From assembly GCA_021324075.1 (NCBI GenBank), contig JAJPJW010000211.1, forward strand, positions 1-61,363: a stretch of 61,363 nucleotides of DNA, in the 5' to 3' direction. The notes under the pieces are model-generated. The model ran no database searches. It had not been told where the DNA came from and saw only the letters and a program-made list of their open reading frames with translations. Origin of the DNA: Pseudomonadota bacterium. GTDB lineage: Bacteria > Oederibacteriota > Muellerivitia > Muellerivitales > Muellerivitaceae. A program made the translations under genes and the position numbers. Shown here piece by piece: positions 34,030 through 57,782 of the stretch; position 1 is the stretch's first letter, and every line of letters begins with the position of its first letter.

Positions 34030-34116
34030 TCCCAACTTGGCTCAAAACAACTGTTTAGTCGGATGGAATTCATTTCGAACCCGAGGTGGATAGCCGGCAG
34101 CTTGGATTTGGCGGAA

Positions 34117-34147
34117 TTGACAGTAAAGGCGGTCCACATGGTATAAT
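34117..34147 (+). promoter_or_regulatory. Strong sigma70 promoter of the envelope island
   Basis: Perfect TTGACA (34117-34122) and perfect TATAAT (34142-34147) with a rather long 19-base spacer. The next gene starts at 34176, leaving a leader of about 20 bases. Confidence 0.75.
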
Positions 34148-34175
34148 CGTTAAACCTTTAGACCCTCAAGGCCCC

Positions 34176-35930
34176 ATGCGATTCGAGTTCCTGAAATTTA
34201 AGTTCTTGGCCCTTTTAGTGGTCGGTTTTTCTTTTCTCTTGTCCCCCTCTTTTTCCCATTCCGACAGCGTCAGCACAACCGGCGTTCAGTTTTTGGAAAT
34301 ACCCGCCGGGGTGCGCGGAGCGGGTATGGGTGGAATGTTCACGGCTGTAGCGGACGATGTTAGCACGATGTATTGGAATACCGCCGGCTTGGCCCAACTG
34401 GACCACATCGAACTGAACCTCCTGCATGTCGTTTACTTCGCTGATACAAATTATGAGTTCTTGGGAGCGGCGCTGCCGATTCAATCCGGAAGCACGCTGG
34501 GGTTGAGCGCGGCGTTTGATTTTGTGCCTAGTTTCAATTCGACGAACAACCCCTCCGCCGTCCCTGGAAGCGCCAACGATTTGGCCATTGCCCTTGGTTA
34601 CGGCCAGACCTTTGGGGACAATTTTGCCCTTGGTATTGGGGGCAAGTTCATCTCCAGCAACCTCGTCACTTATTCCGCTATTGGAGAGGCCGTGGATGCG
34701 GGCCTTTTGCTCTATACGCAGAACAAGGACCTGACCTTGGGGTTATCGGTCCAAAACGTGGGGCAAATTTCGAACTTTTCCGATTATTCTTCCCAGGAAA
34801 AACTCCCGATGGTCTATCGAGCGGGGTTGACTTACCGTTTTCAGCAACCGGGGCCGATTCATTTCCTGGCGGGCGTGGACCTGCAAAAGCCGATCGATAA
34901 CGACGCGGTCGTGCAAACGGGCGGCGAAGTTTGGTGGGGCGACAAATCTTTCGCGGTTGCACTCCGAGGTGGATACAGTTTAAACCCCTTGAATCAGGAT
35001 TTGGGAAGCGGTGTTGGGGCCTCCGTGGGGGCGGGTGTTCGAGTATCGGATTTTGAATTAAATTACGCCTTGGTGCCTTTTGGGGTTTTGGGAGACACCC
35101 AACGGTTTTCCCTGACCTACCGGTTTGGTTTTGATGAGGGCGAAAGCCATCAGCAAGACCAAACGAAAAAAACATCGGCGGTGGAAATCAAACCCCAAAT
35201 CGCTGATTATCAAACGGGGACATTAAAACAGGCGACTTTTGACATCAAACCCCAGGCCCGGACTGATATCAAGAACTGGACTTTGGAGATTACCGATCCC
35301 AAGGGCAATGTATTAAGAAGCTACAGCGGAAAGGGCGTTCCGCCCCGCCAGATTGCATGGGATGGAAAGGATAACAACGGCAACGTGGTCGCCGGAGGAA
35401 TATTTGCTAATTACAACCTGAGAACCGTGGACGTCCGCGGCCAACAGGTTGTGGCAAGCGATCCCATTTTTAAAGTTGCAAAAGTTTCGGCTAAGGAAGC
35501 CCCCTTGCTGGCTTCGGTGTCCATGGAACCACGGGTTTTTGCAGCTCCATCTATTCCTGAATCAATCCAACCGGTTGGAATGTCGGGCGCCATGAAAGTG
35601 CCAAGCATTTCCTTCGATGAGAAAAGTTCAAGGCTCACCCCGGAATTCGAAAATTACCTTGATCAAGTTGCCCGCCTCATCCGTCGGTATCCGAATTGCA
35701 GGGTTTATATCGAGGGCCATTCTTACGATGAAGGAACGGAGCAGCAAGCTCTTCTACTTTCTCAGAATCGGGCCGACCGGGTTTTAAGGTATTTGGTAGA
35801 AAAGGGAAGAGTTTCACCGGATAATCTCTACTCGCGCGGCCATGGCGCTTCGACTCCGATGGATACGGGTGATACGGAGGAGGCCCGTGGTAAAAACCGA
35901 CGAGTTGATATCATCATTATCACGAAATAA
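34176..35930 (+). CDS. PorV/PorQ-like outer-membrane barrel fused to FlgD-like and OmpA domains
   Basis: A 584-residue protein with a signal peptide (cut near FSHS|DS). The barrel begins with the PorV/PorQ hallmark: VQFLEIPAGVRGAGMGGMFTAV split by VADDVSTMYWNTAGLAQL, covering about residues 30-325. A FlgD-like Ig module follows (ITDPKGNVLRSYSGKG, then AWDGKDNNGNVVAGGIF). The end is an OmpA peptidoglycan-binding domain (ISFDEKSSRLTPEF, VYIEGHSYDEG, SQNRADRVLRYL, GKNRRVDI). It would tie an outer-membrane barrel to the cell wall. The ATG at 34176 is preferred over the open frame from 34086, because the latter crosses the promoter. Barrel plus OmpA in one chain is unusual for this family. Confidence 0.82.
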   Translation: MRFEFLKFKFLALLVVGFSFLLSPSFSHSDSVSTTGVQFLEIPAGVRGAGMGGMFTAVADDVSTMYWNTAGLAQLDHIELNLLHVVYFADTNYEFLGAALPIQSGSTLGLSAAFDFVPSFNSTNNPSAVPGSANDLAIALGYGQTFGDNFALGIGGKFISSNLVTYSAIGEAVDAGLLLYTQNKDLTLGLSVQNVGQISNFSDYSSQEKLPMVYRAGLTYRFQQPGPIHFLAGVDLQKPIDNDAVVQTGGEVWWGDKSFAVALRGGYSLNPLNQDLGSGVGASVGAGVRVSDFELNYALVPFGVLGDTQRFSLTYRFGFDEGESHQQDQTKKTSAVEIKPQIADYQTGTLKQATFDIKPQARTDIKNWTLEITDPKGNVLRSYSGKGVPPRQIAWDGKDNNGNVVAGGIFANYNLRTVDVRGQQVVASDPIFKVAKVSAKEAPLLASVSMEPRVFAAPSIPESIQPVGMSGAMKVPSISFDEKSSRLTPEFENYLDQVARLIRRYPNCRVYIEGHSYDEGTEQQALLLSQNRADRVLRYLVEKGRVSPDNLYSRGHGASTPMDTGDTEEARGKNRRVDIIIITK

Positions 35931-40642: not shown

Positions 40643-40691
40643 GGGAAGCATTTCTTGACCCCTTTGCAAAGGCCATGTTAGGTTGCTTGTT

Positions 40692-41618
40692 ATGAAGTGG
40701 TTCTTTTATCTAACCTGTTTTTTGCCATTGACGGCCGCCTTTCCGCTCTGGGCGCAGGACTCCGGCACGACCGGGGCCGACATTTTGAAAGTCCCCATAG
40801 GAGTCCGTCCCGTCGCCTTGGGCGGAAGTTATTCAGCCCTTGGGGATGACGTCTATGTAATGGATTACAACCCCGCTGGCCTTGCCCGCGTTTCAAAATA
40901 CAGTCTTGGAATCGATCATGTTCAGGGGTTTGCGGACGTACAAATAGAATCCCTGAGCGCGGCGATACCCACCCGGAATTATGGAAATTTAGGTGCCCAA
41001 ATTATTTTTCGGCATATGCCTGTCATCCAAAACACCCTCGCGACCGACCCTACCATTTCAGCTGATGATTTTGTCGTAAGTTTTGCGGACGGCCAACAAT
41101 TCGGCAAAATTGCCGTGGGCGGCGCCTTCAAGACAATTGTTTCGACGCTTGGGGAAAAACAAGCATTCACCAATGCCATTGACCTTGGGTTTAAAATCCA
41201 ACTTTGGGACACGGATTTTGCGGCAGTAGTGCAAAATGTGGGGCCGGATGTCCAATTTCAACCCAATTCCCAGGCCTCGGACCCTTTGCCTCTGACATTT
41301 CGACTGGGTGTAGCAAGGCCTCTGATCGTTTCACCCGCTTCCACGCTTTTAACTTCAGCGGAAGTCTTTAACGTGCGCGATGAAGGGACCCAGGCTTCGG
41401 TAGGGTTTGAATATTGGCACCGAAGCGTTTTGGCCATTCGTGCCGGTTATCGTTTCAGCGACGCCGGAAATCTTGAGGGAGGTTTTTCGGCCGGCGCCGC
41501 CCTTCGTTACAATATCGGAAGATTGCAGTATGAGATCGGTTATGCCTGGCGCCCGGCCCAAGTGAGTTCCAGCTTTATTGCCAGTTCGCATTTATTTGGC
41601 CTGCTTTTCTGGTATTGA
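40692..41618 (+). CDS. PorV/PorQ-like outer-membrane barrel
   Basis: A 308-residue protein with a signal peptide (LWA|QD). It has the family hallmark ILKVPIGVRPVALGGSYSAL followed by GDDVYVMDYNPAGLARV, then alternating strands to a C-terminal aromatic (FWY). It matches the length of a lone PorV/PorQ (UPF0164-type) barrel, in contrast to the fused one at 34176. In type IX secretion, PorV shuttles cargo C-terminal domains; whether this lineage has that system cannot be told from the window. Start ATG 40692; TTG 40683 is possible. Confidence 0.78.
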   Translation: MKWFFYLTCFLPLTAAFPLWAQDSGTTGADILKVPIGVRPVALGGSYSALGDDVYVMDYNPAGLARVSKYSLGIDHVQGFADVQIESLSAAIPTRNYGNLGAQIIFRHMPVIQNTLATDPTISADDFVVSFADGQQFGKIAVGGAFKTIVSTLGEKQAFTNAIDLGFKIQLWDTDFAAVVQNVGPDVQFQPNSQASDPLPLTFRLGVARPLIVSPASTLLTSAEVFNVRDEGTQASVGFEYWHRSVLAIRAGYRFSDAGNLEGGFSAGAALRYNIGRLQYEIGYAWRPAQVSSSFIASSHLFGLLFWY

Positions 41619-50100: not shown

Positions 50101-53100
50101 ATGACTTTTTCTTTACGGTTTTTCTTTAGTTGCACCCTTGTTTTTTGGAGTACGACCTTGCTCGCGGAAGCCCAAACCGCCTGCCCCAACTGGATCGCCG
50201 TCGGTAGTGCCACCATAGCCGGATCCGCAGTAACCCTGACCCCCAACGCAGGCGGACAAAGTGGCGCTTGCTGGAACAGCACGCCCATCGACCTCAACCA
50301 AAATTTCACCTTGGCCTTCAATGAATATTTTGGAACAGGGGGAGGCGCCGACGGGATCGCCTTTGTCCTGCAGGACGACATCCGTACAACTGCGGCCATC
50401 AGCGGCAATGGGCAGCCCTGCGGTTTTTGCCTGGGATACGGCGGAATCAATCCCATTACGCCGTCCGTGGCTTTTTCCATCAACGACTATCAGGACAACG
50501 GTGTTCTAAAGCCGTGGCAAAACGGGGTGACGATCCAAAGTTGTGGTTACGTTGGGGCGGGGAATTCCTGTCCCTATACCTTTACCAGTACAATCCAAAA
50601 TAACGCCACCCATGCCGTCACCGTTTCTTGGAACAGCGCCACAACGACCCTGACCTACACCATCGTGGACTCGGCCGGGGTGGCCCAATCCATGACCTAT
50701 GTCCGGGACCTGGTCAATACCGTGTTTGGCGGACAAAACCTAGTTTATTACGGATTCACTGCGGCCACCGGCGGCGCTTCCAGTCTCCAGTACATTACCA
50801 ACGCAACCTGCAATACGCCGACGCCCACTCCTGCCTGTTCAAGCGGCACGACTTTCGGCTTGAGTACGGTTGGAGGGACCGCCAGCGGCAATGAAGTCAA
50901 TATCCAGGACAGCACCCGTTACAATTTGGCGAGTTCTGCGACGATCACGAGCATGGCGATCAACCTCACGGCTGCCACGGGAGTAACTGGAGTCGTTGGA
51001 ATTTACGCCGATAATGCCGGGACCCCGGGGAATCTCATCACTCAAAGTTCCCAGCAACAGCTTGTTGCAGGCTGGAATCAGCTGAGTGTTGCCCCGGCTC
51101 CTTTGGTCGCTGGAAGCTATTGGCTTGCCTTTTATATGAGCGCTGGAACCGGAAACGTCGCCTTTAATGCGGGGGCCGCAAACAGCGAGTATTTTGTAAA
51201 TGAAACGGGAGGGCCCTTCAACAGCCTGCAAACTCCCTTTGGGGCGGGGACCGCCGGGACAAAGAATTTTTCCATTTATGCGGTTGGATGTATCGGCCCT
51301 GTGGCAACCCCGACTTTTACACCGACGATCACACCGACGATCATTCCTTGTTCCAGGACTATGAACAAGGCCGTAAGTATTATTGCGGCGGCAAATACCA
51401 CCAGTTTGACGCTGCCGTTGACGATTACAACGGGCCTCGCCAATCCCTTACTGGTTGTACAAATAAGTGATGAATCCAATGCAACCGGCATAACCTCGGC
51501 CACTTATAACGGCGTTAATTTGACCCTCGCGATGGGAGTGACCAGTAGCAATGGCGATGCTTGCTGGACTTATTATGAACCGGGGCCCAGCCTTCCGACA
51601 GACGGCCTCGCGCACAATATCATTGTCAATTTTAGCGGTTCCCATATTGCGGCCATGGGGGCCATGGTTCTTACGGGTGTCGCCCAAACCGCGCCGATCA
51701 TCGGAAATTCGGTGGCATTTCAACAGACGACGAACGTCACGAACCCCAATACGACCATCACGACGACCCAGCCCAATTCATTTATCATCGGCTTCGCCCA
51801 TTCCTACAACAATACCGCCATTACTGCCAGCAGCCCTCAAACCGTTGCCTGGACCGAAACCAACGCGGCCCGACACTGGGCGGGAGACTACCAACTGACC
51901 AACGGCACTGGTTCCTATCCCGTGTCCTATACAACGGGGAATATTCATACGGATATTCAAGCCATCGAATTTTACCCTTCCAGCTGTAACCCGACCGCAA
52001 CCCCGACGAAAACACCGACGAATACAACGACCAAAACCCCAACCTTTACCCCGTCCAGCACGGCCACCAACAGCCCCACGCTTACGCCCACCTTTACCCC
52101 GACCTTGACGGCGACTTATACGGCTACGAACACTCCAACGAGCACCACGACGAACACTACGACGAGTACAGCCACCAATACCACTACGAAGACCGCCACC
52201 AGCACCGCCACCTTTACTGCCACGAATACCCCGACCAATACCGCCACGAATACAACAACGACTACACCTACAAACACTGCCACCAATACCCCAACCAACA
52301 CGGCAACCAGCACAACGACTAACACAACTACCAGCACCGCGACCAATACGGCTACAAAGACTGCGACCAGCACCACAACCACTACGGCTACAAATACCAC
52401 TACCAATACTGCCACGAATACGCCGACCAATACGGCGACGAACACTGCAACTAATACACCCACCAATACCGCTACCAACACAGCTACCAATACGATGACC
52501 AACACGGCTACTAGTACTGCGACGAATACGGCTACAAGCACGGCCACCTTTACTACCACTAGTACCCCGACCAATACACCCACCAGCACGGCTACTAACA
52601 CTCCAACGAATACGGCAACCAATACAACGACTAATACTGCGACGAAGACCGCCACTACCACCGCTACGAACACGGCAACGAACACGACCACCAATACAGC
52701 GACGAATACCGCGACTAGCACTGCAACTAACACACCTACCAATACGACTACAAGCACTCCGACCAACACGGCTACGAATACGGCCACAAACACCGCTACA
52801 AATACGGCTACCAACACCACCACCAGCACGGCAACTAATACGACCACAAACACAGCCACTAATACTGCAACTAACACACCCACCAATACGACTACAAGCA
52901 CTCCAACCAACACGGCTACGAATACAGCTACTAATACTGCGACCAATACGGCGACGAAGACCGCTACCAGTACCGCCACCAATACAGCGACGAATACCGC
53001 CACTAACACCGCCACAAACACGGCTACCAACACGACGACCAATACCGCTACGAACACTGCCACAAACACTGCTACCAATACGACTACGAGCACTCCAACC

Positions 53101-56100
53101 AACACGGCTACGAATACGGCCACCAACACTGCGACTAGTACAACCACAAATACTGCAACGAACACGGGAACCAATACGGCCACAAGCACCCCAACCAATA
53201 CTGCTACGAATACGGCCACAAACACTGCAACCAGTACAGCTACAAATACCGCTACGAACACCGCTACTAATACAGCGACAAATACGACGACGAAAACCGC
53301 TACCAGCACTGCTACAAATACACCCACCAATACGGCCACCAACACCGCCACGAATACTGTTACGGACACAGCCACAAATACTGCGACCAACACGCCTACC
53401 AATACAGCTACCAGTACAGCCACGAATACCGCTACCAATACCCCCACGAATACATTCATCCATACGGCCACGAATACGGCGACGAGTACCCCGACCAGTA
53501 CGCCGACCAATACAACTACAAATACTCCCACCAGCACCACTACCAATACGGCTACGAATACAGCTACCGAAACGGCCACCAATACAGCGACCAATACACC
53601 AACAAATACACCGACCAATTCGGCGACGAACACTGCTACCAATACCGCTACAAATACTGCTACGAATACAGCCACCAATACGGCCACGGATACGGCAACT
53701 TACACGGCTACAAATACCGCTACGAACACGGCCACCAATACAGCTACTAACACAGCAACCAACACGGCCACTACCACCGCAACTAATACGGCGACAAATA
53801 CACCCACGAATACCACCACCAATACGGCTACGGACACGGCCACCAATACGCCGACGTATACGGCAAGCAACACTGCTACGTTGACGGCGACAAACACACC
53901 CACCAGCACAGCGACCAACACCACGACGAATACGGCTACCACTACCCCCACGAATACGGCAACCAACACGACGACCAATACCGCCACCAACACGCCAACG
54001 AATACTCCGACGAATACTGCTACGAATACAGCCACCAATACGGCGACCAATACCGCCACGAATACGGCCACGAACACGACCACTGATACTCCGACGAATA
54101 CGACCACGAACACCGCCACGGATACCCCGACGAACACCGCGACCAATACGGCCACTAATACGGCTACGAATACCGCCACGAGTACGGTCACCAATACGAC
54201 AACGAATACTCCGACGAATACGGCCACGAACACCGCCACGAATACCCCGACGAACACTGCTACCAATACGGCTACTAATACGGCTACGAATACCACTACC
54301 GCCACGGCCACCCAGACAACCACCGATACGCCGACGAATACACCGACTAATACCGCCACGGACACGGCCACCAACACACCGACCCAGACGGCCACAAATA
54401 CGGCTACTGACACGACTACGGAGTCCCCCACCAACACGGCCACTTCAACAGCAACAAACACTCCGACCGATACGGCGACCAACACGGCTACGAATACCGC
54501 CACTTCTACGGCCACGAACACAACCACTGATACTCCGACGAATACGCCGACTCACACCGCTACCGATACAGCCACCAACACCGCCACCAATACGACCACC
54601 AATACGGCTACATTCACCCCCACCAACACAGCGACCAACACGACAACGAATACTCCGACGAATACGGCCACGAGCACCGCCACAGATACCGCGACGAACA
54701 CTGCGACCAACACAGCGACCAGCACTACAACCAATACCGCCACCAGCACCACCACGAATACGCCGACCAATACGGCCACCTCAACCATCACCAGCACGCC
54801 CACCGTTACAGCTACGGCAACGCCGACCGATACGGGAACGCTTCCGCCGACCGCTACACCTACGAACACCGCGACCAATACTCCGACAGGTACTCCCACC
54901 AATACGGCCACGAATACGGCCACCAGCACGGCCACTAATACTGCGACCAATACGCCAACGAATACGGCAACTAATACCGCGACCAATACAGCCACCAATA
55001 CCGCGACTTCTACAACGACAAATACAGCCACCAATACCCCCACTGATACGGCCACCAGTACCACTACCAATACCGCCACACCAACAGCCACAAACACTGC
55101 GACGGCAACGGCCACCGATTCGCCCACCGAGACAGCTACGGGCACTCCAACCAACACAGCCACCGCTACAGCCACCCCCACAACCACAAATAGCCCGACA
55201 TCGACAGCTTCGAGCACGCCAACAGGCACGGCCACCAATACCGCCACTTCAACTTGTACTTATACGACGACCGCCACCGCCACCGGCACAGCCACCGCCT
55301 CTCCTAGCTCCACCACGACCAATACTTCCACCACTACCGCCACAGCTACGGCCACCAACACTTGCACTTCAACCTGCACCTCGACGCCGACGAATACCGC
55401 GACCCAAACAGCCACTTCAACCGCCACCGGGACCTTTACTTCCACGCCGACCTTTACGGCGACCTACACGCTCACGAATACGGCGACTTCCACCGCCACC
55501 AGCACCATCACCCTTACGCCTACCGTCACGGCCACTTCCACGATTACAGGAACTCCCACGAACACCCATACGCCCGGTTGCGGCCTCCAAATGGTCCAGA
55601 TTTACGACGACAGGGGCGAGCAGGTTGCTTCCATTTGCGGGTCGCTGTCCTTCTCGGGAGGGAGTACTTTCTCAATGTCTCTTTCCAATTTCGCACCCAA
55701 CTCAAACGGCCCTGGCGGGACTATCTCGATTTATTTGAATGGCCAAACAGTCGGGACGTGGAATGGTACGAAAGACAGCGGAGATTGGGTACCGAACGGG
55801 TTTTACCATTTTGTCTTGGTGGAACACTCGCCCGACGGGAGCACTGTCCAAATGGAAAGGGATGCCTTTATATCAACTTATCACGGCGAATCGATATCCC
55901 TGGTTGCTTGGCCCAACACGGCTCACCCTGGGCAAATGGTCAATTTCAACGCTTCTTTTGCTGGAACACCTGCGGATTCCCAAAGTAAAATGAAAATCTA
56001 TACAGCCGACGGGGAATTGGTCCAAACCGTCAGCTTTACAGTCGGAACCGCCCTTTGGGACTTGAGAAACCCCTCCGGCCAAGTTGTCGCATCCGGGCTT

Positions 56101-56181
56101 TATTTGGCTGTCTTGGACGGGGTCGATCCATTAAACGGCCAATCCCTTAACAAAGTCGTTAAAGTGGTAGTCACTCACTGA
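50101..56181 (+). CDS. Giant secreted lectin-like protein with Thr/Asn-rich repeat stalk and FlgD-like C-terminus
   Basis: A 2026-residue protein. Signal peptide at 1-25 (LAEA|Q). Residues ~26-240 resemble an L-type (legume-like) lectin: NFTLAFNEYFGTGGGADGIAFVLQ, SVAFSINDYQDNG, VTVSWNSATTTLTYTIVD. Two further beta-sandwich-like regions follow (~244-397 and ~419-630). Residues ~631-1823 are a low-complexity stalk of TNT-A/P-TNT repeats, about half Thr, likely O-glycosylated. The last ~200 residues hold FlgD-like Ig modules (TWNGTKDSGDWVPNGFYHF, LWDLRNPSGQVVASGLYLAVLDG), like sorting-type C-terminal domains. Start ATG 50101 begins the signal peptide; the frame is open from 49981. A probable surface adhesin; secretion route is inferred. 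A PorV-like gene follows 17 bases later. Confidence 0.8.
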   Translation: MTFSLRFFFSCTLVFWSTTLLAEAQTACPNWIAVGSATIAGSAVTLTPNAGGQSGACWNSTPIDLNQNFTLAFNEYFGTGGGADGIAFVLQDDIRTTAAISGNGQPCGFCLGYGGINPITPSVAFSINDYQDNGVLKPWQNGVTIQSCGYVGAGNSCPYTFTSTIQNNATHAVTVSWNSATTTLTYTIVDSAGVAQSMTYVRDLVNTVFGGQNLVYYGFTAATGGASSLQYITNATCNTPTPTPACSSGTTFGLSTVGGTASGNEVNIQDSTRYNLASSATITSMAINLTAATGVTGVVGIYADNAGTPGNLITQSSQQQLVAGWNQLSVAPAPLVAGSYWLAFYMSAGTGNVAFNAGAANSEYFVNETGGPFNSLQTPFGAGTAGTKNFSIYAVGCIGPVATPTFTPTITPTIIPCSRTMNKAVSIIAAANTTSLTLPLTITTGLANPLLVVQISDESNATGITSATYNGVNLTLAMGVTSSNGDACWTYYEPGPSLPTDGLAHNIIVNFSGSHIAAMGAMVLTGVAQTAPIIGNSVAFQQTTNVTNPNTTITTTQPNSFIIGFAHSYNNTAITASSPQTVAWTETNAARHWAGDYQLTNGTGSYPVSYTTGNIHTDIQAIEFYPSSCNPTATPTKTPTNTTTKTPTFTPSSTATNSPTLTPTFTPTLTATYTATNTPTSTTTNTTTSTATNTTTKTATSTATFTATNTPTNTATNTTTTTPTNTATNTPTNTATSTTTNTTTSTATNTATKTATSTTTTTATNTTTNTATNTPTNTATNTATNTPTNTATNTATNTMTNTATSTATNTATSTATFTTTSTPTNTPTSTATNTPTNTATNTTTNTATKTATTTATNTATNTTTNTATNTATSTATNTPTNTTTSTPTNTATNTATNTATNTATNTTTSTATNTTTNTATNTATNTPTNTTTSTPTNTATNTATNTATNTATKTATSTATNTATNTATNTATNTATNTTTNTATNTATNTATNTTTSTPTNTATNTATNTATSTTTNTATNTGTNTATSTPTNTATNTATNTATSTATNTATNTATNTATNTTTKTATSTATNTPTNTATNTATNTVTDTATNTATNTPTNTATSTATNTATNTPTNTFIHTATNTATSTPTSTPTNTTTNTPTSTTTNTATNTATETATNTATNTPTNTPTNSATNTATNTATNTATNTATNTATDTATYTATNTATNTATNTATNTATNTATTTATNTATNTPTNTTTNTATDTATNTPTYTASNTATLTATNTPTSTATNTTTNTATTTPTNTATNTTTNTATNTPTNTPTNTATNTATNTATNTATNTATNTTTDTPTNTTTNTATDTPTNTATNTATNTATNTATSTVTNTTTNTPTNTATNTATNTPTNTATNTATNTATNTTTATATQTTTDTPTNTPTNTATDTATNTPTQTATNTATDTTTESPTNTATSTATNTPTDTATNTATNTATSTATNTTTDTPTNTPTHTATDTATNTATNTTTNTATFTPTNTATNTTTNTPTNTATSTATDTATNTATNTATSTTTNTATSTTTNTPTNTATSTITSTPTVTATATPTDTGTLPPTATPTNTATNTPTGTPTNTATNTATSTATNTATNTPTNTATNTATNTATNTATSTTTNTATNTPTDTATSTTTNTATPTATNTATATATDSPTETATGTPTNTATATATPTTTNSPTSTASSTPTGTATNTATSTCTYTTTATATGTATASPSSTTTNTSTTTATATATNTCTSTCTSTPTNTATQTATSTATGTFTSTPTFTATYTLTNTATSTATSTITLTPTVTATSTITGTPTNTHTPGCGLQMVQIYDDRGEQVASICGSLSFSGGSTFSMSLSNFAPNSNGPGGTISIYLNGQTVGTWNGTKDSGDWVPNGFYHFVLVEHSPDGSTVQMERDAFISTYHGESISLVAWPNTAHPGQMVNFNASFAGTPADSQSKMKIYTADGELVQTVSFTVGTALWDLRNPSGQVVASGLYLAVLDGVDPLNGQSLNKVVKVVVTH
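51993..55572 (+). repeat. Coding tandem repeat, 6/12-base period (Thr-Asn rich)
   Basis: About 3.6 kb built from the hexamer ACN-AAY (Thr-Asn) and ACN-(GCN/CCN/ACN) in alternation, so the period is 6 and 12 bases. The third codon positions vary freely (ACA, ACC, ACG, ACT all used), so neighbouring units are rarely identical as DNA although the protein is monotonous. Interruptions such as Lys, Ser, Asp, Phe-Ile-His and Tyr are scattered, and the last third shifts to Ser/Pro/Gly-richer units. On the reverse strand it opens long Val/Ala-rich frames that are artefacts. Confidence 0.95.
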
Positions 56182-56198
56182 AAGGAGTGAAGGAATCC

Positions 56199-57635
56199 AT
56201 GAGGATTCCGAATTTAAACCTTTACATGAAAACAAAGTCCAACCTTCAACGCCTTGTGGTTTTTTCCTTCTTTTTTTACCTTTCTGGTTCTCCATGTCAT
56301 GCGCTTTTTGACCGGGGCGGAATCCTTGGTGTGGGCACCCGTGCTATGGGCTTGAGCGGCGCATTCACGGCCGTCGCCGACGATTCAAGCGCCGCCTATT
56401 GGAACCCAGCCGGATTGGTCCAGATAAACCAACCCCAGATCTTGGGAATGTACGGCTCCTATTTGAACGACAAAAATCGGAACCTCTATTTTTCATTTCA
56501 ATACCCGCTTCCCGACGACATCCACTTGGCCATCAGTACCAATAATCTTTTTTACACGGATATTTCGGGGTCCCACGAGGACCAATACACGGGATCGGTG
56601 GCGATTCCGATGGATTTTGTCACCGAAAAGCGCCTGCTCTTTGGGGCAAACTTTCGTTATCTTTTTGCGGATACGGGCGCTAGCGGAGGGGGTACGGTCC
56701 AAGGTACGGGTGTGGACCTGGGGTTCCTTTATCGACAACCCTTCAAGGACAACACCGAGTTGAAGGCCGGCTTGGTTTTGACAGACCTTTCGACGGCCGT
56801 CCGATATGACAGTACGGGGGTGGAACAACCCGTTCCGTCCGTTTTAACACTCGGCTTAGCCTATCATTTCGACCCTTACACCCTGGTTTCGTCGGATATG
56901 CCGTGGACGCTTTCCAACGACAGCCTTTTCGGAGGCGAAGACGTTCGAATTCGGGGCGGGGTAGAGCATTGGTTTTTTGATGGCCGCCTTGGGCTAAGGG
57001 CGGGGTTCATCAGCTTCGTTACCCTTTCGGGTGAATTCAGCATCGGTGCCAGTTACCGTTCCGCCGACTGGTCGGTTGATTATGCCTATGCCAATCACCC
57101 GGACCTGGGTAACGATCACCGACTTTCGGCAAGCTATTATTTCGACGCCGGGCCCCCTGGACAAATCGAACCAAAACCCTATATGGTCCAATCCCTGGTT
57201 GGAGATGGGAAAATCTACTTGAAGTGGGATATTCCCGAGGGGAGCAAGGCCGACGGATTCCTGGTTTATTTCCGGACCGATGATATGAAGGACTTCCAAA
57301 GGGCCAAGCAGGAACTGCTCCAAACAAAGTATTGCCTGCTCCGGGGCGCCAAAAACGGAATGAGCTACCACATCATTATTCGGTCGGTCGTGGAAGGCCA
57401 GGAGAAATACGCCTGCAATGAATGGGTTGTGACGGCCCGCCCCATCCTGGATGACGCCAAGAAATATTATGACGAAGGCGTGAGTGATTTTAACCAGGAC
57501 AAAATTTCATCCGCTCTTTATCAAGCCCATAAAGCGGAAGAGTTCGACCCTAATAATTACGATATCAAGAACCTGATCCGAAAATTGGAAACGACCCACC
57601 ATGATGGGCTGGTTCCGGAAGAAGACCGTCCTTAA
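56199..57635 (+). CDS. PorV/PorQ-like outer-membrane barrel with FN3-like and TPR-like tail
   Basis: A 478-residue protein with a signal peptide (about residues 10-33). The barrel starts with the hallmark GILGVGTRAMGLSGAFTAV followed by ADDSSAAYWNPAGLVQI and runs to about residue 315. A fibronectin-III-like module follows (IYLKWDIPEGSKADGFLVYF), then a short TPR-like helical end (ALYQAHKAEEFDPNNYDIK). Start ATG 56199 after AAAGGAG; GTG 56187 and ATG 56226 are alternatives. Its position 17 bases after the giant protein, with no terminator between, indicates one operon and a likely partnership, possibly cargo anchoring or export. Confidence 0.8.
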   Translation: MRIPNLNLYMKTKSNLQRLVVFSFFFYLSGSPCHALFDRGGILGVGTRAMGLSGAFTAVADDSSAAYWNPAGLVQINQPQILGMYGSYLNDKNRNLYFSFQYPLPDDIHLAISTNNLFYTDISGSHEDQYTGSVAIPMDFVTEKRLLFGANFRYLFADTGASGGGTVQGTGVDLGFLYRQPFKDNTELKAGLVLTDLSTAVRYDSTGVEQPVPSVLTLGLAYHFDPYTLVSSDMPWTLSNDSLFGGEDVRIRGGVEHWFFDGRLGLRAGFISFVTLSGEFSIGASYRSADWSVDYAYANHPDLGNDHRLSASYYFDAGPPGQIEPKPYMVQSLVGDGKIYLKWDIPEGSKADGFLVYFRTDDMKDFQRAKQELLQTKYCLLRGAKNGMSYHIIIRSVVEGQEKYACNEWVVTARPILDDAKKYYDEGVSDFNQDKISSALYQAHKAEEFDPNNYDIKNLIRKLETTHHDGLVPEEDRP

Positions 57636-57716: not shown

Positions 57717-57782
57717 ATGCATCGGACAACTCCGCCAGGAAAGGCGGAGTTTTTTTTTGCCCAGCTAAAATTTATTTCCTAA
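57717..57782 (+). other. Possible 21-codon leader ORF across the terminator
   Basis: ATG at 57717 to TAA at 57780-57782, encoding MHRTTPPGKAEFFFAQ and five more residues. It runs through the whole terminator hairpin and ends 9 bases before the purA start. GGGA lies just upstream, too near for an ideal ribosome site. Coding status is speculative. Confidence 0.2.
57728..57758 (+). terminator. Intrinsic terminator before purA (operon end or attenuator)
   Basis: Stem AACTCCGCC (57728-57736) with GGCGGAGTT (57743-57751), loop AGGAAA, then an unbroken T-run to 57758. It may simply end the giant-protein/PorV operon. Because a good promoter lies upstream of it and downstream of the PorV stop, it may also act as an attenuator for purA. 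Confidence 0.85.

Follow-up and report, generated by a model that had tools for sequence, protein, structure and literature searches.

A stalked lectin-type protein and its adjoining PorV-family barrel as a probable cargo-carrier unit of a type IX-related export route in candidate division FCPU426

The locus described here raises the question whether a giant stalked protein and the outer-membrane barrel encoded directly behind it form one functional unit, and by which route such a unit would reach the cell surface. Both genes lie in a 61,363-nucleotide stretch of DNA, called the window in the following; it corresponds to contig C17 of an assembly with a size of 3.57 Mb and a completeness of 98%. 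The source genome belongs to the uncultivated candidate division FCPU426, a group linked with the Goldbacteria (PMC7031533). An initial annotation of the sequence had described a 2026-residue protein with a lectin-like head, followed after 17 bases by a PorV/PorQ-type barrel gene with no terminator in between. Based on this, a cargo-plus-anchor unit was proposed, either as a relative of the type IX secretion system (T9SS) or as an independent route. The open frame, the lectin match and the 17-bp gap were confirmed (Table 1), and no terminator-like site was found between the two genes. The gap contains a good ribosome-binding site (AAAGGAGTG) before the barrel start, and the only strong terminator is placed after the barrel gene. 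We consider it probable, at roughly two in three, that the pair is a cargo protein with its own carrier and anchor in an SprA-based, type IX-related export route, for which we infer the binding of the two proteins, the export, the anchoring and the energy source. The unit proposed in the initial annotation is supported.

The terminal domain of the cargo protein was assigned by profile searches and structure prediction. Residues 1826-2026 were modelled by AlphaFold2 with a mean predicted local distance difference test (pLDDT) score of 89 as two sandwiches, the last one with seven strands. Pfam places the terminal domain in the FlgD_ig family (PF13860, 35.7 bits, cut-off 27), in agreement with the FlgD-like modules that had been annotated at the C-terminus, and the NCBIfam model for the PorZ C-terminal end matches it as well (E 4.6e-7). 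The preceding module reaches 18.5 bits against CHU_C, below the 27-bit cut-off, and other genes of the same genome score above the PF18962 cut-off. For the search against the PDB, a profile was built from 18 such terminal domains. It found the C-terminal domain (CTD) of PorU first (E 1.3e-9), that of PorZ next (5.8e-8) and FlgD third (5.5e-7). Gingipain CTDs and CTDs from structures of the SprA translocon were matched more weakly. PorU was also the top Foldseek match of the domain model. A match to ordinary FlgD-like immunoglobulin (Ig) modules only, which would have spoken against the proposed unit, was not obtained, since T9SS sorting domains match the domain better than FlgD does. WD-repeat designs and propellers, returned by phmmer for the CTD alone, were judged to be spurious. 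The terminal pattern 'GLY..DG...KVVKVVV', which had been likened to sorting-type CTDs, is present in the cargo protein and conserved in its orthologues. Type A CTDs carry an almost invariant, functionally important lysine near the C-terminus (PMC10994853). Among 33 paired domains, the position of Lys2021 is occupied by lysine in 27 and by lysine or arginine in 30.

The downstream protein matches the PorV/PorQ family model NF033709 (PorV_fam) with 85.5 bits (E 4.8e-24), and 11 other genes of the source genome exceed the cut-off of this model in one stretch. A match to the PorP/SprF family was not found for the barrel. The AlphaFold2 model has a mean pLDDT of 85.5 over the whole chain. With Foldseek, PorV from two T9SS translocon structures ranked on top (8gl6_F and 6h3i_F), followed by TbuX and FadL. 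PorV (6h3i_F) was also the best sequence match in the PDB (E 5e-29) for a profile of 35 barrel relatives; the profile was required here, as phmmer with the barrel alone returned no PDB match. Long tails, like those of this barrel, are also carried by 8 of the 10 complete paired barrels of the source genome.

Adjacency of cargo and barrel genes is far above chance and general in the phylum. In all five relatives which have both genes in sequence, including one from another family of the same order and one from another family of the phylum, the gene before the barrel orthologue encodes a protein that is rich in Thr and shares the terminal domain. In four of these five, the adenylosuccinate-synthase-like gene that follows the barrel in the window can be recognised again, directly behind the barrel or one gene further on. 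About 20 PorV-family genes were examined in the source genome, 12 of which are located directly 3' of a gene ending in a sorting-type domain. A stricter count, in which the upstream gene must have an independent Pfam match, gives nine pairs and leaves out those on contigs C94, C201 and C11, where the tail was read by eye and has no Pfam match. The probability of nine pairs is about 7e-11 at a background of 2% and 2e-7 at 5%. Across 80 barrel-bearing loci from many phyla, with flagellar barrels set aside, a sorting-type domain ends 21 of the 47 genes upstream of the barrels vs 12 of 647 other open reading frames (Fisher P 4e-19, and 3e-15 once the orthologues of the window are removed). The same count over five further phylum genomes gave 22 of 33 PorV-family genes directly 3' of a domain-bearing gene. 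The further paired cargos include a subtilase, a protein with CBM9 and PA14 domains, and fibronectin-III (Fn3) arrays. Conserved pairing, which the initial annotation had named as a point to check, was found for all orthologues with upstream sequence and for the majority of the PorV-family genes that were examined in the phylum. Over 33 pairs, the distances between domains and those between barrels are correlated (Mantel r 0.54, P 2e-4, permuted within genomes), and the nearest neighbours of domain and barrel agree in 15 of the 33 pairs, with a permutation mean of 2.

A homologue of the translocon protein SprA (Sov) was found in the source genome. It is encoded by a reading frame of 2,021 amino acids which reaches 207.6 bits against TIGR04189 (cut-off 200) and matches the model in four collinear blocks. 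A Skp/OmpH-like gene is located about 10 kb upstream of sprA on the same contig. SprA matches were obtained in 40 of 45 genomes of the phylum and in 24 of the 25 high-quality ones; in the six-frame search, three of the 45 exceed the cut-off and five are without any match. In other phyla, matches limited to positions ~590-690 of the model were not counted as SprA, as they appear to reflect a short domain in common. The presence of SprA favours a relative of the type IX system over an independent route. The outcome for PorU had not been foreseen by the initial annotation: the catalytic family C25 (PF01364) was found neither in the source genome (98% complete) nor in its order, and the same search detected it in 4 of the 45 phylum genomes. 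PorU-model matches cover almost only the CTD region, including the one listed for the source genome, which covers this region only, and with no catalytic domain found they were rejected as PorU.

In Bacteroidota, type A cargos use one shared PorV and are cut and re-anchored by PorU, and type B cargos have a dedicated PorP/SprF barrel encoded directly downstream, which stays as anchor (PMC12618676, PMC9143113, PMC10994853). PorU and PorZ, which retain their CTDs, are bound to PorV and PorQ, respectively, and in porU mutants the substrates remain PorV-bound with an uncut CTD (PMC5562754, PMC7463736). In the route proposed here, the giant lectin protein would cross the inner membrane via Sec. Its C-terminal sandwich would then be recognised at the SprA translocon jointly with the cognate PorV-like barrel encoded downstream, and both proteins would exit the translocon together, like PorV with type A substrates. 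As no PorU-type sortase was found, the domain would stay uncut and the barrel would remain bound to it as a non-covalent anchor, so that the lectin head would be displayed on its long stalk. The Fn3 and tetratricopeptide repeat (TPR)-like tail of the barrel would face the periplasm.

Several observations weigh against this proposal. The T9SS tail model TIGR04183 scores the terminal domain with 18 bits, below its cut-off of 23. The barrel stays just below the 90-bit cut-off of NF033709 with its 85.5 bits, and reaches 26.8 bits against the PorV equivalog NF033710, where 250 are required. The barrel family is also without the ~80-residue insertion of the C-terminal half of PorV, so its loops are shorter, possibly including one of those that would hold the CTD. 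When the SprA reading frame alone was searched against the PDB with phmmer, no relative was found. Of the motor and ring proteins PorK/L/M/N, GldM/PorM was covered by the models TIGR03517 and PF12081, which were silent; this silence is not used as absence, because the models also gave no match in genomes where SprA is clear. The co-divergence of domain and barrel falls to r 0.18 (P 0.19) when close duplicates are removed with the strictest filter, and is not significant in the source genome alone (r 0.15, P 0.17). It was rejected as proof of binding, because the signal weakens without close copies and duplication or co-inheritance of the gene pair as a unit explains it equally well. The proposed system would work in the manner of type IX secretion. 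As only a part of the defining set of the type IX system was confirmed, we classify it as a variant, short of full membership.

Three other readings were considered. In the first, the source genome would encode an ordinary type IX system: the terminal domain would act as a type A signal, handled by a PorV common to many cargos and cut by a divergent sortase, and the adjoining barrel would be a PorV-family member that is not dedicated to its neighbour. This would agree with the presence of SprA, with several PorV-family genes that have no adjoining cargo and with ~50 FlgD_ig/Por-tail stretches over the genome, of which only about a dozen are paired. It appears unlikely, however, as C25 peptidases were found neither in the genome nor in its order by a search which detects them elsewhere in the phylum, direct adjacency of cargo and barrel is strongly enriched and conserved, and the barrel scores below the PorV equivalog cut-off.

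Two further explanations concern the barrel itself. It might be a transporter similar to FadL and take up a ligand to which the lectin protein binds, e.g., products of glycan breakdown, with the Ig modules only tethering the stalk to the cell or the barrel. PorV leads both the profile and the fold ranking by a clear margin, the paired cargos are too diverse for one ligand class, and SprA occurs throughout the phylum (40/45 genomes). We hold this explanation to be quite improbable, although the FadL fold group includes PorV itself, the fold ranking continues with TbuX and FadL, and a lectin head would suit glycan binding. It is still harder to believe that the PorV-like barrel exports and anchors the cargo alone, without SprA. 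The PorV-family genes outnumber any single translocon and five of the 45 genomes have no SprA match, but SprA is found in nearly all high-quality genomes of the phylum, and PorV is described as a carrier which accompanies its substrate out of the SprA pore and not as the pore (PMC10994853). Passage of a chain of 2,000 residues through a 14-strand FadL-type barrel also seems unlikely. We therefore retain the cargo with its own SprA-dependent carrier as the preferred reading.

The coordinates of both genes and their parts are given in Table 1. Of the ~1,190-residue Thr-rich stalk annotated initially, the stalk itself was found but its length had to be corrected to 1,235 residues. It contains 635 threonines, which occupy 95% of alternate positions, and shows tandem repeats with periods of 12, 36 and 72. 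All four Thr codons occur, thus the repeat is kept at the protein level and does not result from recent DNA duplication. The head presumably functions as a lectin, judging from its family match. The cargo orthologue in the same genus (genome G001) has no Pfam lectin match, yet direct comparison shows 46% identity between the heads, which are thus orthologous. The neighbours of the cargo gene are the barrel gene and the adenylosuccinate-synthase-like gene, with no flagellar gene context.

Table 1. Features of the cargo gene and the barrel gene in the window
Feature	Position	Strand	Basis
Cargo gene, stalked surface protein of 2,026 amino acids	50101..56181	+	Open frame, translation
Probable Sec signal peptide, residues 1-25 (...LLAEA|Q)	50101..50175	+	Read from sequence
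L-type (legume-like) lectin head, residues 33-234	50197..50802	+	PF18483, E 1.9e-27, 97 bits (cut-off 78.3)
Thr-rich stalk (T-N-T-A/P repeats), residues 607-1841	51919..55623	+	Thr content and tandem repeats
First C-terminal Ig-like module, residues about 1826-1932	55576..55896	+	AlphaFold2 model; weak CHU_C-like match
Terminal 7-strand sorting-type domain, residues about 1933-2026	55897..56178	+	FlgD_ig, PorZ C-terminus and PDB profile matches, model
Conserved Lys2021	56161-56163	+	Nearly invariant in paired domains
Ribosome-binding site AAAGGAGTG of the barrel gene	56182..56190	+	Sequence
PorV-family outer-membrane barrel gene, 478 amino acids	56199..57635	+	NF033709 PorV_fam, PorV profile and Foldseek matches
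14-strand beta-barrel, residues 80-314	56436..57140	+	AlphaFold2 model
Fibronectin-III/Ig-like tail domain, residues 328-412, presumably periplasmic	57180..57434	+	Model; PDB Fn3 profile matches
Putative three-helix TPR-like tail, residues 418-469	57450..57605	+	Model; TPR-like by sequence
Intrinsic terminator 3' of the barrel gene	57728..57751	+	9-bp GC-rich stem, then T run

Other PorV-family genes were observed beside this pair. In the window, a reading frame of 614 amino acids (34086-35930) combines a PorV/PorQ-type barrel with a FlgD-Ig domain and an OmpA/Pal-like peptidoglycan-binding domain and resembles a PorP-PorE fusion. A third PorV-family gene of the window (40683-41618) is nearest to PorQ and is located behind a gene for a predicted outer-membrane-like protein; no cargo domain is found upstream of it. 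Across the phylum, a flagellar cluster contains two tandem PorV-family genes (~715-730 and ~520 amino acids) beside flgF/flgG-like genes (L079:7642-11377, on G000:C129; also L074-L076, L081, L083, L086 and L087). The first of the two has a CTD-like domain in the middle of the protein, and a flagellum-linked pair of PorV-type barrels was unexpected. One genome carries three near-identical cargo-barrel pairs (G009, contigs C169, C154 and C28; loci L213, L217 and L219), a recent triplication of the whole unit. With regard to SprA, two records titled 'Spirochaetia' (L119) and 'Candidatus Methylomirabilis' (L121) come from genomes with matches identical to those of the phylum genomes G034 and G043, so that their titles look misassigned.

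According to a review from 2024, T9SS genes do not occur outside the Fibrobacteres-Chlorobi-Bacteroidetes (FCB) phyla (PMC11285876). In contrast, we find an SprA homologue nearly universally in an uncultivated phylum, where cargo-barrel pairs are numerous and most genomes have no sortase. Searches of an open-access library, which is incomplete and without preprints, gave no description of SprA or of paired cargo and PorV genes for FCPU426/Goldbacteria. More tentatively, and with the odds somewhat against it, FCPU426/Goldbacteria and related phyla may use a reduced, sortase-less type IX system with a separate PorV-family carrier for every paired cargo, which would also anchor it permanently. 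Beside type A with PorV and type B with PorP, a third arrangement would then exist, possibly near the ancestral state. If the pairs bind as proposed, proteins from metagenome-assembled genomes that are filed as 'FlgD-like' or 'PorV/PorQ family' could in many cases be predicted as secreted cargo, and their partners would be known. Such pairs would further provide natural one-to-one material for the recognition between carrier and cargo, and a view of a type IX system without covalent anchoring.

Compared with known systems, the terminal domain shares with FlgD, the scaffold of the flagellar hook cap, the Pfam family FlgD_ig, and this likeness concerns the Ig part only. Here, however, the domain is C-terminal in a large protein of predicted exported type and lies outside flagellar genes, and FlgD ranks below PorU and PorZ. 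With the type A systems of Flavobacterium and Porphyromonas, the locus has in common the related domain fold, the C-terminal lysine, a PorV-like barrel and SprA in the genome. It differs from them by ~20 PorV-like barrels, many of them paired with cargo, instead of a single shared PorV, and no PorU was found. The gene layout is that of type B: in SprB-SprF and PG1035-PorP, a large repetitive adhesin likewise has its own 14-strand barrel gene directly downstream, and these are one-to-one pairs with an uncut CTD (PMC12618676, PMC9143113). In contrast to type B, the barrel here is of the PorV family and not PorP/SprF, and the domain resembles the tails of PorU and PorZ and not CHU_C. Among solved structures, none are closer to the terminal domain family than PorU and PorZ. 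In the attachment complex of Porphyromonas gingivalis, PorZ-PorQ and PorU-PorV each consist of a surface protein whose C-terminal sandwich stays uncut and of a PorV/PorQ-family barrel that binds it non-covalently (PMC5562754, PMC7463736), and the same is proposed here. Those are parts of the machine that are encoded once, whereas here many diverse cargos are found and no sortase. The arrangement combines PorU/PorZ-like domains, PorV-like barrels, a type B gene layout and SprA, with no sortase found, and would be read most simply as a dedicated anchoring carrier for each paired cargo.

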